From positions 1 to 16,582 of the forward strand of contig JALSQH010000266.1 in NCBI GenBank assembly GCA_026985515.1: a stretch of DNA of 16,582 bases, written 5' to 3'. The notes under the pieces were generated by a model. It was not told the DNA's origin and did no database searches. It was given only the letters and a program-made list of their open reading frames with translations. The translations under genes were made by a program, and so were the position numbers. This stretch comes from a bacterium. GTDB taxonomy: Bacteria > JALSQH01. Each line of letters starts with the position of its first letter. Position 1 is the first letter of the stretch. This document shows, piece after piece, positions 2 through 16,231 of this stretch.

Positions 2-922
2 CCTCCTTCGATACCTGCTGTGATATATCAGAATCAGATCACAAATCAGGTTGATTATGTTTTGAAGAGGAGCGGAGGAAGTGTTGATAGCAATTTCCTT
101 TTGTGGGAATGTCAGGGTGGAGACAGGGCAGATTTTGTACCATGTGGAGGAAGTGAGTCCACCACAGATTTTTATTACAGGTTGCTTACGGGAACTCCCC
201 AGAGAATAAACATGCTACGATTAAGAGCAGTGGATAAAGCTGGAAACACAGGAGATTCTGCCATTGTTCAGATAATTTATGATTCAACTCCGCCCACAAG
301 ACCGCTTTTGGGTCATAGAGGAAGTAGAATCTTTGTTAATACTGATAGTTACCTTGTTGAAATAACCACACCTTCCAGTGATGTGAATTTTGATCTTTAC
401 CAGTACTGTGTTGAGGATGGAGATACTTCTTACTGCCCTGATTCAGATTTTGTCAATTCTTCTCAGTCTCTTGAGATACCCGTTCCTCTTGAACCTGATA
501 AGGTAGTGAGTGTGTTCATAAGGGGAAAGGATAAGGCGGGTAATGTGTCTCAATATGATAGAGTTGTCATAGAGCAGGATTCAGATCCACCATCGGCCCC
601 ACAGCTTCTGTTAAACGAGGTGTATGTAAATGCGATTTCTATACCTGTTTTCCTCTCAAGAGGGTCTGTTGATCCTTCTTTGGCTGATCCGGGAGAGGAT
701 AATTTTGATCACTATGAAGTTTATGGAGGATTAAACTGCAAAACAGGGGACGTTTATAACAACGATTCAATAGGAAGGAATGAAGGTCTCTGGGTATGCC
801 TTTTCAGAGAGGGAGGGATCCCCCTGCTGAAAAATGGAGAAGTGGATGTGGAGATATATGCTGTGGATAAAGCGGGAAACAGGAGTTATCCTGCTTTGTT
901 GAGAATATTTGCCAGAAATTCG
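2..922 (+). repeat. Three tandem Ig-like modules with DKAGN motifs
   Basis: Modules run from about 2-289, 290-586 and 587-922. Each opens with a Pro-Pro pair (codons at 2, 290 and 587) and carries DKAGN near its end (233-247, 530-544, 866-880), so the period is about 96-112 residues. Each module has two cysteines before DKAGN, spaced differently. The DNA around DKAGN is similar but not identical, so the copies are old. The pattern resembles bacterial Ig-like or fibronectin-like repeats of secreted proteins. Further copies probably lie upstream of the window. Confidence 0.75.
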
Positions 923-3900
923 GAACCTGTTTTTACTGATTCAAATTTATCGGATCTTATTACAATTGCTTCTCACGGAATTTTTTACAGGAAATACAGT
1001 GACAGCAAGGTCTTTTTTTACAATTTTGATGATGAGAAAATTTATTCAGATGATATTTACAGCAGGTTCGCAAATTGCTCTGAAGGTACTGATTACCTGT
1101 ATGTTGAGAGTCTGAAATCAATTACAAACTATGATGGTAATGAAATTTTGCTGGGGTCTGGAGGAGGTCTGTTGCCAAATTTTCTTCTTGCAGACAAGTT
1201 TGAAATGAGTGATAATAGCTGGAGTTCCTATTCATATCTCTTCCCTACAGAGGAAAGGATTGCAACACTTGCTACCAATCAGGGTGGGGTTGCCTGGGTG
1301 ACTACTGGAAAAGGTATAATTATGGCGCCATCGGTAACTTCTTCTACTTTCTATAATGTTGATAAGTGGAGATGCTATTTCAATTATTATCGTGTCACAT
1401 CTGAAACACAAATATATGGTTTTTATCAGCTGGTAAATCTCAGCAGGGAATCCACAGATGGTCTTTACGGAATGTATGGGAATGTTTATGGTGATAGTGC
1501 CTATGTGAGCCTTATACCTCTCAGCTGTCTGGGGACCGGTTACGGGGAAAATGGTTTTATGGAGAAAACATGGGTCATGGTTCCTGTTGATGCGAGAGTT
1601 CAGTTTGGTACGGTGTTTGTTGCTGGTATCTGTACTGATGGAAATAATAGATTATCCTGGAAAACTCTATCCAGAGATGATAACTTTCCTGGAGTTGTGA
1701 CAATGCCAGATATGGAATTGATCGGTTCTTCTGAATCATATAATCCTGCTATTACTGAGGACAATCATGAAATAGCGCATATTTCCGTTGATGATAGCAG
1801 GGCATACAGTCAGATTCTTCTCCTTCAGAAACATAAGGTTGCAGATTACATAAACCTTTACTACGCTCCTGAATCTATCAAGGATTTTACGCAATCAGAA
1901 AGATCTTATAATACCTATAAGACTCCTTTTACACCTGGCGAGGTAAGGGAGATCCTTGAGATTCCTGAAGTAATCAATGGTTACGAAAGATTATTTTTCG
2001 ACAGCGACTCCTACACCGGAACCGACAGGTTGAGAGGTATTGAAATTTCATTTAACAGTAGCTATAAGATTTCTGCTATACGTGCTTATCTGAAGTGCAG
2101 CGGCAATACTACAATACGGGGAGCCATCTATAAGGAGACATCTTCAGATACTTATTCCCGTATAGCATCCACCTCCACGGTAAATTCATTTACAAGTGAT
2201 TTTTTTGAGTATGTTCTTCGTTTTGACGAGCCTGTACATGTTGATAGTGATGCTCCTTATCTCATTGTGTTTCAGTGGCGGGGTGATAGTTGCGAATATT
2301 ATGCAGGGGGCAACAATCCTATTGAAAGGCCATATGGAGTTGTTGAGAGACGGGTAATGGTTAACAATGTTTCTGAAGTTCCGTTGACAATAAGTAGCAG
2401 CAGTATTCAAACTGGATATTTTTATGAAATAGGCTTTGACATCAGTGAGGGAGGCGACATAATCAAAGATCCCGGCCGCATTCTGGATCTTTCTGGAAGA
2501 TATCTTTTCCTTGCAACTTCCTTTGATTCATCAAATCCACTGACTTATTCAACCCTGAGAGTTATTGATCTGGGGGAAAATTTCCTTTATGACTCTTCCG
2601 ATAGGCAGTGCATAATCCAGAGCGGAGACGGGATTGAGTTCGGTATCCTTGATGCTACCGGAAAAAGTTTTACATATGTTTATACCACCAATGATGGAAC
2701 CATCAGACATGTCTTTTATGATTTTGGCAGTGATGGAATTCCCTGTACAGGCGATGATGAGAAGATTACCACAGATATTTCCCGATGGGTTGATTCGGAA
2801 AGGATATATCCCTCTCTTTCAATGATAGCTTCAATGGAACCCGATGTCGTCTCTCTGAGGACCGGGATTTACTGGTATGACCTGGCAAAGGTGAAGGATT
2901 ACGGTGATAACTGGTATGGAAATATTCAGCCTGAAAAAAAGAGTGAAAACGGATTTGCCGGGGATTCTTATCTTCTCGGGGATATACCTTTCGTACTCCA
3001 GGAAAATTATGGGAACGAAAATTATACTATTTACAGAGAAAATCCAGAAATTTTCTATCCATTTGGATCAACTTCTGTAGATAATGGTTTTAAGATATCG
3101 AGCAACGGCGATTATGTGGTGGTAACAGGTTTTGATTATTATAATAACCTTATTCAGGGCAGCACGCTATATGTTTTCGATAGAATCACAGGAAAATATA
3201 TTGGAGGAATAAAAAGCGAAGACTCCTTTTTTGTCTCTGTTCCTGCTGGTAATGAGGTTTTTATTAATGCAAATTTCACTAATTTTACTCAAGGACAACA
3301 AAAGTATCTCATGTATGATATTCACACAGGCAATCTTTTTGAACCTTCAAACATTTCTGGTGGGTACAAACTAAAGTGGGGCGATTACGAATTTTTAATC
3401 TCTAATTTCAATGTACCATCAGGTACAAGGTTTCTTTTCAGCAGTTATGAGAATGACAGGTATGTTGTTCACATTTATGACCTGGGGGATGATGGAATAC
3501 ATGTTGATGAAGGTTCTGGCGATGATAGAGAAGACTGGATCGATCCATTTCCTTTTGAAATGAGTGTTACAACTCCTGTTGGATTTTATCTTACAGATAC
3601 TTACTTCGCTGTTGAGGTAACAGAAGCGGACTTTGTACATGATGTTTTATATGGAAAATTGGGAAGTACCCAGATTAAAAGTATACACGATATTGATGTT
3701 TTCCTGGGTATTTCTGGTGAAGACATGTATTACATCGCTGATAGCTATTTGCACAGGAGAAATCTATCCTCTGATGATGATAGGATAATGAGAGTTGCTT
3801 ATATACATGACTTCTTTCCATACAATGTGGGCAGGAAAGGTGACTGGATATTTTTTGCATCTGACGACAATATCTTTGGAATAACTGCTATTAATCTTTT

Positions 3901-4057
3901 TTCTAATGAGGAAATTCCCATATTTGCAGGTAACAACCTTCCACCTTTTACGGGAAGTGTTTATCCTGGAAAATTTATTGAACCTGATGGTAATGGTTTT
4001 ATGTTCAGTCTACAGAATGGCAAAAGGATTCTCATGAGGTATGAGATTGGCAGATAG
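2..4057 (+). CDS. Very large probable surface/secreted protein, 5'-truncated: Ig-like DKAGN modules plus beta-propeller-like region
   Basis: The frame is open from base 2 and the protein evidently began upstream, because the first codons (Pro-Pro-Ser) match the Pro-Pro starts of the later modules. GTG at 20 is therefore probably an internal valine. Three modules of about 100 residues (2-922) each contain DKAGN and two cysteines. The rest is rich in Tyr, Asp, Gly, Ser and Asn with alternating hydrophobic strands, as in beta-propellers. A likely beta-sandwich interrupts it at about 1980-2400, and two Asp-rich loops lie at 2720-2758 and 3479-3526. There is no transmembrane segment, lipobox or recognisable C-terminal sorting signal in the visible part; it ends in YEIGR and TAG. 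The many cysteines and the extracellular-type repeats suggest export to an oxidising compartment. I do not recognise a named family. Adhesin, surface-layer-associated protein or sugar-binding protein are all possible. That it is a real gene is very secure; its function is not. Confidence 0.9.
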   Translation, partial: PPSIPAVIYQNQITNQVDYVLKRSGGSVDSNFLLWECQGGDRADFVPCGGSESTTDFYYRLLTGTPQRINMLRLRAVDKAGNTGDSAIVQIIYDSTPPTRPLLGHRGSRIFVNTDSYLVEITTPSSDVNFDLYQYCVEDGDTSYCPDSDFVNSSQSLEIPVPLEPDKVVSVFIRGKDKAGNVSQYDRVVIEQDSDPPSAPQLLLNEVYVNAISIPVFLSRGSVDPSLADPGEDNFDHYEVYGGLNCKTGDVYNNDSIGRNEGLWVCLFREGGIPLLKNGEVDVEIYAVDKAGNRSYPALLRIFARNSEPVFTDSNLSDLITIASHGIFYRKYSDSKVFFYNFDDEKIYSDDIYSRFANCSEGTDYLYVESLKSITNYDGNEILLGSGGGLLPNFLLADKFEMSDNSWSSYSYLFPTEERIATLATNQGGVAWVTTGKGIIMAPSVTSSTFYNVDKWRCYFNYYRVTSETQIYGFYQLVNLSRESTDGLYGMYGNVYGDSAYVSLIPLSCLGTGYGENGFMEKTWVMVPVDARVQFGTVFVAGICTDGNNRLSWKTLSRDDNFPGVVTMPDMELIGSSESYNPAITEDNHEIAHISVDDSRAYSQILLLQKHKVADYINLYYAPESIKDFTQSERSYNTYKTPFTPGEVREILEIPEVINGYERLFFDSDSYTGTDRLRGIEISFNSSYKISAIRAYLKCSGNTTIRGAIYKETSSDTYSRIASTSTVNSFTSDFFEYVLRFDEPVHVDSDAPYLIVFQWRGDSCEYYAGGNNPIERPYGVVERRVMVNNVSEVPLTISSSSIQTGYFYEIGFDISEGGDIIKDPGRILDLSGRYLFLATSFDSSNPLTYSTLRVIDLGENFLYDSSDRQCIIQSGDGIEFGILDATGKSFTYVYTTNDGTIRHVFYDFGSDGIPCTGDDEKITTDISRWVDSERIYPSLSMIASMEPDVVSLRTGIYWYDLAKVKDYGDNWYGNIQPEKKSENGFAGDSYLLGDIPFVLQENYGNENYTIYRENPEIFYPFGSTSVDNGFKISSNGDYVVVTGFDYYNNLIQGSTLYVFDRITGKYIGGIKSEDSFFVSVPAGNEVFINANFTNFTQGQQKYLMYDIHTGNLFEPSNISGGYKLKWGDYEFLISNFNVPSGTRFLFSSYENDRYVVHIYDLGDDGIHVDEGSGDDREDWIDPFPFEMSVTTPVGFYLTDTYFAVEVTEADFVHDVLYGKLGSTQIKSIHDIDVFLGISGEDMYYIADSYLHRRNLSSDDDRIMRVAYIHDFFPYNVGRKGDWIFFASDDNIFGITAINLFSNEEIPIFAGNNLPPFTGSVYPGKFIEPDGNGFMFSLQNGKRILMRYEIGR
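1980..2400 (+). other. Candidate beta-sandwich (choice-of-anchor/carbohydrate-binding-like) domain inside the large protein
   Basis: The segment from about Gly-Tyr-Glu-Arg (near 1980) to about 2400 reads as alternating hydrophobic strands. It contains a 'YKISAIRAYLKC' strand, then a 'RGAIYKE' strand, a serine/threonine-rich stretch, a 'FDEPVHV' strand and a 'PYLIVFQW' strand. This order (kinetic strand, 'xIY' strand, 'F..PV.v', 'Y.ivf') is typical of small extracellular sandwich domains found next to anchors and sugar-binding proteins. Two cysteines (in YLKC and in DSCEYY) could form a disulfide. The assignment is from pattern only and the boundaries are approximate. Confidence 0.4.
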
Positions 4058-14101: not shown

Positions 14102-15222
14102 TGAATAGAAATCTGGAAGTGGAAAGGGAAAAAGCAGTAATAGTTTACGGTGTTCTGAAAAAGGATAAGAGCAATGTACGAGAATTTGTTTACGAGCTGA
14201 AGAGTCTTTCAGAAACTGCTGGTGCCAGAGTTCTTGAAGTTTTTGTTCAGAGAGTTGAGCGATTCAATCCATCACTGCTGGTAGGGAAAGGAAAATTAAA
14301 TGAAGTGAAAGAGTTTGTTCATAAAAATGGTATTGATGTGGTGATATTCGGGAATGATCTGACCCCCCTTCAGCATGAAAACCTCGAAGATTTCCTGAAA
14401 ACTAAGGTTGTTGACAGAACTGAGCTGATTCTTGACATATTTGCCCAGCATGCGAGAAGCAAAGAGGGTAAGATTCAGGTTGAACTTGCCCAGTTGAGAT
14501 ACAGGTTGAACCAGCTGGTTGGCAGAGGTAAAGAGTTATCAAGGCTGGGAGGTGGAATTGGAACAAGGGGTCCTGGTGAAACGAAACTTGAAGTTGATAG
14601 AAGAAGGATTAAAAACAGGATAAGCAAACTCCAGCGTGAACTCGAGAAAGTTAGAAAAAGTAGAGCAGAACAGAGAAAAGGGAGGAAAAGGTCTGGAATA
14701 CCCCATTTTGCACTGGTCGGATACACCAATGTTGGCAAATCTTCTCTTCTGAATCTGCTTGCAAAGAGCAATGTTCTTGTGGAAGATAAACTCTTCGCCA
14801 CTCTTGATCCAACTACCAGGAGAGTTTATATTGGGGATGGGATGGTTGTTCTGGTGAGTGATACTGTGGGTTTCATTGAAAATCTTCCTTCCGATCTTTT
14901 TGAGGCTTTCAAGGCCACTCTTGAGGAAATAGAAGAGGCGGATTATGTGATTCATGTAATTGACGCTTCAAATTTCGACATTGGAAGAGAGCTTGAGAGT
15001 GTAAACAGGATACTGAATCTCCTTGATGTGACCGATAAACCAGTCATTCATCTCTTCAACAAAATTGATCTGGTGGATGAGGAACTTTTAAGAAAGAAAT
15101 TCGAAAAGAGGTTAGAAAACAGCGTTTTTGTCTCAGTAAAGGAAAAAAGGGGGATCGAAGAGCTTAAAGAGATGATGAGAAAAATGGTGGAGAGGAAGAT
15201 AGATGAAATCAAGGTTGGTTAG
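14101..15222 (+). CDS. hflX: Ribosome-associated GTPase HflX
   Basis: HflX is a GTPase that binds the large ribosomal subunit and splits stalled or heat-damaged ribosomes. The N-terminal HflX domain includes 'NPSLLVGKGKL' (56-66), 'VVIFGNDLTPLQ' and 'VVDRTELILDIFAQHA'. A linker 'GGGIGTRGPGETKLE' (150-164) and a charged coiled coil (about 165-198) follow. The G domain has G1 'GYTNVGKS' (207-214), G3 'DTVG' (254-257) and G4 'NKID' (320-323). The 373 residues are normal for the short form. The ATG shares one base with the dnaE stop. GGGAGG at 14092-14097 leaves only three bases, so coupling to dnaE translation is likely. The end overlaps the next gene by 20 bases. Confidence 0.97.
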   Translation: MNRNLEVEREKAVIVYGVLKKDKSNVREFVYELKSLSETAGARVLEVFVQRVERFNPSLLVGKGKLNEVKEFVHKNGIDVVIFGNDLTPLQHENLEDFLKTKVVDRTELILDIFAQHARSKEGKIQVELAQLRYRLNQLVGRGKELSRLGGGIGTRGPGETKLEVDRRRIKNRISKLQRELEKVRKSRAEQRKGRKRSGIPHFALVGYTNVGKSSLLNLLAKSNVLVEDKLFATLDPTTRRVYIGDGMVVLVSDTVGFIENLPSDLFEAFKATLEEIEEADYVIHVIDASNFDIGRELESVNRILNLLDVTDKPVIHLFNKIDLVDEELLRKKFEKRLENSVFVSVKEKRGIEELKEMMRKMVERKIDEIKVG

Positions 15223-16231
15223 CATTGTAATTTTTATTTTACTGCTTTTTAAATTCGCATCAGATACTTATGCCCAGCAGTGCGTTATGACAAAGGGCTC
15301 TGCCATATTCAGAGAGAATGTTGAGGAGGGAATTGAAAGGGCAAAAAAGATAGCTCTGGCCAGGGGAGTTATAAAGGTTCTTGGGAAGAAAATACCACTG
15401 CAGTTTCTCAAAGCCAGATACGCTATTATAAAGAAGCATATTGTTAGTCGGGCGGAGGATTTTGCAACAGATGTTAAAGTCGTAAGAAAGATTATTCATG
15501 GACACTCTGTTAAACTTCTTTTGTGTGTCAAATGGAATGAAAATTTATTAACCACCACTCTTGAATCACTCACGATCATTCCTGAGGGGATTCTTCCTCC
15601 TCCTCTGCAACTGAAAATTGTGGTGAAAGATTTTAGTTTCCCTGTAACAGAAAAAGCTCTTTATTCTTTTTTATCTGACTATATCAGATCTTATGGCTTC
15701 CCCATTACAACGGATAATTACCGCTATGCTTTTCTAATTAAAGTGAGCTCCCGCCCCATCAGGCCTTTTCCACTTATTGTCTCTCCCTCTGAGATCAGAA
15801 TAAAACTTGTGGTTACCGGTAACAATAATTTCAGATTTAACTCTGGTGAGGTGGCACTGTATCCTTTTGCAACGTCTGATTTCATTATGGATGAAATAAA
15901 AAGTGTTATAAGAGAAGGACTTGAGAAGGTAAGGCTCAACTGGTTCATGCATATAAAGAAATTGAACAGACTTGTAATAACTGTTCCTGTGAAATTCAAA
16001 AATAAATTTGTAAGAATAATGACTGATCTCATGAAAAATTCAAGTTATGCTTCCCTCGTTAGGGCAGGACAATTTTTCCCTGATGCTCTTACTCTTGTGG
16101 TCTATTATGGAAAAAGTGTTTCAAAAGATGAGGTAATTGAAGAGATATCTTCCGTTCTTGCCCGGGATCTTGGATTGACATTGAAGAAGACGGAGGGTGG
16201 AATAGAAGTTGAAGAATCTGCATCGAAGTAA
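15203..16231 (+). CDS. Secreted protein with FlgT_N-like domain, function unknown
   Basis: The 342-residue product begins with a Sec signal peptide: Lys3 and Arg4, a hydrophobic core 'IVIFILLLF', and a likely cut after 'DTYA' before Gln25. Cys27 is not in a lipobox. Residues about 28-116 follow the pattern of the FlgT N-terminal/LPP20-like fold: a 'TKGSAIF' strand, a helix with 'GIERAKKIALARGVIKVLG', then 'HIVSRAEDF' and a 'HSVKLLLCVKWNENLL' strand pair. Cys27 and Cys108 may pair. The C-terminal two thirds are mixed alpha/beta with no motif I recognise and are highly basic. The ATG overlaps hflX by 20 bases; purine-rich AGAGGAAG (15191-15198) precedes it. Its own end is overlapped by the next exported protein. 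The context suggests an envelope role, possibly with the amidase; a flagellar role is not supported here. Confidence 0.8.
   Translation: MKSRLVSIVIFILLLFKFASDTYAQQCVMTKGSAIFRENVEEGIERAKKIALARGVIKVLGKKIPLQFLKARYAIIKKHIVSRAEDFATDVKVVRKIIHGHSVKLLLCVKWNENLLTTTLESLTIIPEGILPPPLQLKIVVKDFSFPVTEKALYSFLSDYIRSYGFPITTDNYRYAFLIKVSSRPIRPFPLIVSPSEIRIKLVVTGNNNFRFNSGEVALYPFATSDFIMDEIKSVIREGLEKVRLNWFMHIKKLNRLVITVPVKFKNKFVRIMTDLMKNSSYASLVRAGQFFPDALTLVVYYGKSVSKDEVIEEISSVLARDLGLTLKKTEGGIEVEESASK
16192..16200 (+). promoter_or_regulatory. Ribosome binding site for the TTG-started final gene
   Basis: GGAGGGTGG lies 8 bases before TTG at 16209 (measured from its last base) and within the preceding gene. It supports the unusual start codon. 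Confidence 0.55.

Follow-up and report, generated by a model that had tools for sequence, protein, structure and literature searches.

The open reading frame at the start of the window (the whole stretch of DNA analysed, 16,582 bases, which is the entire contig C266 in the genome of an uncultivated bacterium, 2.36 Mb in 268 contigs and 97.6% complete) probably encodes the outer, C-terminal end of a long modular surface-binding lipoprotein, in which a conserved anchor and stalk carry a variable head. The frame runs uninterrupted on the + strand, as do all features within it, from 2 to 4057 (1351 amino acids, stop codon at 4055–4057), and its length and continuity leave little doubt that it is coding. 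Its 5′ end is missing, the frame being open at the contig start, so that these coordinates cover only the C-terminal part of the gene. Both this truncation and a probable lipoprotein anchor on another contig (C265) emerged here, having been overlooked in the earlier note. Elsewhere in the window, downstream of an hflX-like gene, positions 15203–16231 encode a protein of 342 residues whose start resembles a signal peptide and which matches nothing significantly in Pfam or NCBIfam.

The first 303 residues (2–910, truncated 5′ at the contig edge) form the stalk, a tandem array of similar Ig-like units in which the DKAGN motif is found at least three times, at window positions 233, 530 and 866. 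Self-alignment of this part scored 106, whereas the highest of 60 shuffles reached 57. The OmpL47-type NCBIfam model NF047446 matched the window protein with an E-value of 6.9e-9 and 36 bits, below its cut-off of 40, while a homologue of the stalk in a sister genome (G001:C72; genome JALTID01) reached 44.7 bits, above that cut-off, and also passed the Big_13 cut-off. These Ig-type family matches, weak in the window protein itself, and the strong internal repeats confirm the Ig-like stalk that had been proposed from the sequence alone.

The missing N-terminal part is probably encoded on contig C265 of the same genome, at whose end a frame of the same family runs off the contig. This frame opens with a signal peptide and a cysteine, continues through a pair of CarboxypepD_reg-like domains and a stretch reading ‘VTGDFEIVGYL’, and goes on into Ig repeats. 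Our sequence comparisons suggest that C265 and C266 are two parts of one gene split by a gap of unspecified length, because both frames are open at contig ends and because C72 carries both parts on one contig, with an N-terminus resembling C265 (47% identity) and, past a run of N, Ig repeats whose end is 47% identical to window residues 1–75. There is no sequence overlap between C265 and C266, and the joining therefore stays an inference. The lack of overlap would also fit a different gene history, in which C266 is the tail of a different Ig-bearing surface gene that lacks its start in the assembly, and other Ig-bearing proteins are indeed encoded in this genome (C5, C104); against this stand the arrangement in C72 and the fact that C265, open at its 3′ end, is the sole incomplete N-terminus of the family found in the genome, and we consider a separate gene rather unlikely.

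With C265 taken as the N-terminus, the family comprises C265 and a paralogue on C38 in the window’s genome, and C72, C157 and an interrupted copy on C106 in the sister genome; a contig search with the N-terminal profile found members in that sister genome only. An invariant S-C-S follows the signal peptide in four N-termini of the family, C265 included, and an Omp85 protein is encoded in both genomes, so an outer membrane is expected. The protein would accordingly appear to be lipidated at the conserved cysteine and exposed at the surface. The copy on C106 (L027 5255–6819) is split over several frames and contains a TAG in frame; it is either a decaying copy or the product of assembly errors. 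Directly upstream of the probable N-terminus, and divergently transcribed, lies a gene (L021 3–1595, G000:C265) for a possibly lipid-anchored protein that by eye looks like an SGNH-type hydrolase. A further pair of orthologues in the two genomes (L024 4602–7610 and L026 2772–5729) combines Big_5 and Ig-like domains with subsequent FG-GAP repeats, as assigned by Pfam on L024.

The remainder of the window protein, the head (residues 304–1351, 1048 residues), is an orphan in sequence yet ordinary in kind. Searched whole and in pieces, it gave no family in Pfam, NCBIfam or PHROGs and no sequence relative in the PDB: the whole protein returned weak Ig-type matches only, and the separate pieces returned sub-threshold matches only. 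No relative of the head was found in 290 genomes at an E-value of 0.001 or among plasmids and phages, a contig search with the window protein found none, and literature searches yielded nothing on this protein. Blocks 1 and 2 of the head, each searched alone against 386 genomes at E 0.02, and an internal-repeat profile of the head used in a genome search returned chance-level matches only; those of the matched proteins that were read included, recognised by eye, one GH92-like protein and others of the GGDEF/EAL, SelB and CarB types. Matches to DarT (E 7e-4 over 42 residues, 19/150 bits) and to PL28 were likewise dismissed as chance.

Residue counts in the head (Tyr 7.5%, Phe 6.6%, Asp 8.3%, Gly 8.7% and Ser 9.8%) exceed those of adjacent housekeeping genes for tyrosine (1.6–4.0%) and for serine (2.9–7.4%). 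Enrichment in tyrosine and serine is frequent in extracellular beta proteins. The earlier description of the head as Tyr/Asp/Gly-rich, beta-rich, of extracellular type and lacking an annotated family thus agrees with our counts and searches, one ordinary β-sandwich being the exception to the last point. The short strands, which had been called repeated, were not confirmed as such in either block, as set out below, and autocorrelation of strand propensity gave no significant period (p 0.37–0.57).

This β-sandwich lies at 1988–2443, between the two blocks, and its core is the one region of the head models with moderate confidence (pLDDT about 54–72), which were folded without homologues, none being at hand. 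In Foldseek and VIA, its best structural matches included PHR domains and several carbohydrate-binding modules (CBMs), the highest Z being 8.0; the PHR structure 3gbw superposed in VIA with a Z of 7.3 and 3.2 Å over 105 residues, values of Z under 8 being common for this β-sandwich arrangement. Pfam PHR (PF08005) was also the top family by sequence, with an E-value of 0.05 and 14.5–14.7 bits against a cut-off of 23.6. A forward search matched the domain to part of an extracellular-looking protein from another phylum, with E 0.003 in a single genome of the 386, a result at chance level if taken alone. A reverse profile, built from the foreign domain and its same-phylum relative only, scored 10.8 bits on the window protein at residues 670–781, whereas the highest-scoring of 500 shuffles reached 6.2; a shared β-sandwich pattern, in place of descent, could also give such a match. 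Several weak lines, from the model, its neighbours and the profiles, thus indicate that the middle domain is a PHR/CBM-like β-sandwich. Its presence bears out the division of the head near 1970–2440 in the earlier note, since a separate domain sits there, although the note itself had left the gap empty. A resemblance to the NCBI ‘choice-of-anchor R’ domain was not borne out, there being no NCBIfam match. Two long extracellular-looking proteins of another phylum (L050 1480–1962, L051 1453–1932) each contain a β-sandwich without an above-cut-off Pfam or NCBIfam match; these two domains and, more distantly, that of the window are possibly one undescribed mobile domain.

Block 2 (2444–4054) is probably propeller-like. 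The β-propeller fold consists of four to twelve four-stranded blades, between which sequence similarity is frequent, not obligatory (PMC3797127). Foldseek on the model of this block, a poor one with a mean pLDDT of only 33.9, listed mostly propellers, their status being judged by the titles of the entries; none of these matches had an E-value under 0.001. In VIA, one blade-sized unit (3080–3229; residues about 1027–1076, model residues about 217–266) fitted single blades of many propellers at 2–3 Å with Z at most 5.3. The best internal match pairs a unit with the motif YDFGSDGIPCTGDDE at 2633–2791 with a unit containing YDLGDDGI at 3392–3541; the two share the pattern Y-D-x-G-x-D-G-I. This match is not significant alone, and 5 of 60 shuffles reached the score of the block's best self-match. 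Block 1 (911–1990), also beta-type in sequence, has a model with pLDDT mostly about 30, which was not usable, and its best self-match was reached by 15 of 60 shuffles. Block 1 showed no similarity to block 2, and neither block matched the heads of C38 and L003 (a protein of another phylum) in hhalign or, against C38, scored beyond shuffles in Smith–Waterman alignments. A propeller, which the earlier note had suggested for both blocks, is therefore plausible for block 2, going by its model’s look-alikes and its one blade-sized unit, and unproved for block 1, where repeat, usable model and relative are all wanting.

Two true, highly diverged β-propellers flanking the sandwich nevertheless remain a serious, if less than even, prospect: the block 2 look-alikes are mostly propellers, block 1 is about propeller-sized with the same composition, and in C38 and, by eye, in L003 a propeller-like head comes after similar Ig repeats. 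This reading is opposed by the failure of block 1 repeats to exceed shuffles, by the dissimilarity of block 1 to block 2 and to the C38 head, and by the lack of a match to any Pfam propeller family. Were block 1, and perhaps block 2, instead to represent new domain families or folds, they could be lineage-specific binding heads exchanged on a conserved anchor and stalk within one uncultivated phylum, which we think unlikely. More improbable still is a head with enzymatic action, such as that of a surface enzyme which degrades polysaccharides with a catalytic propeller or sandwich, rather than passive binding; a CBM-like sandwich in mid-head and the propeller enzymes among several of the block 2 look-alikes would suit it, but no catalytic family matched, and the PL28 match reached just E 0.13 over 32 residues.

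We favour a modular binding lipoprotein whose N-terminal half (probably C265) would be held in the outer membrane by a lipid on the conserved cysteine. The stalk would be built from a pair of small carboxypeptidase-regulatory-like domains and a run of Ig-like repeats, and block 1, the CBM-like β-sandwich and the propeller-like domain would together make up a binding head at the tip. The head presumably binds a ligand, which would be extracellular, a glycan or a protein on a surface or particle; we lean slightly and weakly to a glycan, given the likeness of the modelled middle domain to CBMs. On the lipoprotein reading, the window adds an orphan head to an anchor-plus-stalk lipoprotein family of a little-sampled phylum. 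Its β-sandwich, together with those of L050 and L051, has no above-cut-off Pfam or NCBIfam model and may be common to several phyla.

Among the closest known systems is the paralogue C38 (L022 1164–5318, G000:C38), a complete protein of the 1385-residue class, which has the same N-terminus as C265 (37% identity) and the same carboxypeptidase-regulatory-like and Ig domains; its head, however, is unrelated in sequence to that of the window protein, strongly repetitive, and weakly matched by the PDIAV lipoprotein model NF053835. Sequence comparison is thus best read as showing an anchor and stalk conserved in the family and heads that vary between paralogues, a single anchor being able to carry unrelated heads. 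In L003, similar Ig repeats are joined to a run that by eye resembles LVIVD propeller repeats, and since C38 pairs the same anchor with a different head, an architecture of stalk and propeller-like head seems to recur. The window stalk is like the OmpL47, Big_13 and Big_3 Ig-like repeats (NF047446, PF19077, PF13754) in repeat length, DKAGN motif and linker, but scores just under the NF047446 cut-off and carries a head unfamiliar in that family. The middle domain shares a jelly-roll-like β-sandwich with the PHR domain (PF08005) and CBM sandwiches, yet falls below the Pfam cut-off for PHR; the known animal PHR proteins are intracellular. Block 2, unlike typical β-propellers, belongs to no sequence family and has no significant internal symmetry, and its low-confidence model nonetheless resembles the fold in its mostly propeller look-alikes and its one superposing blade-sized unit.
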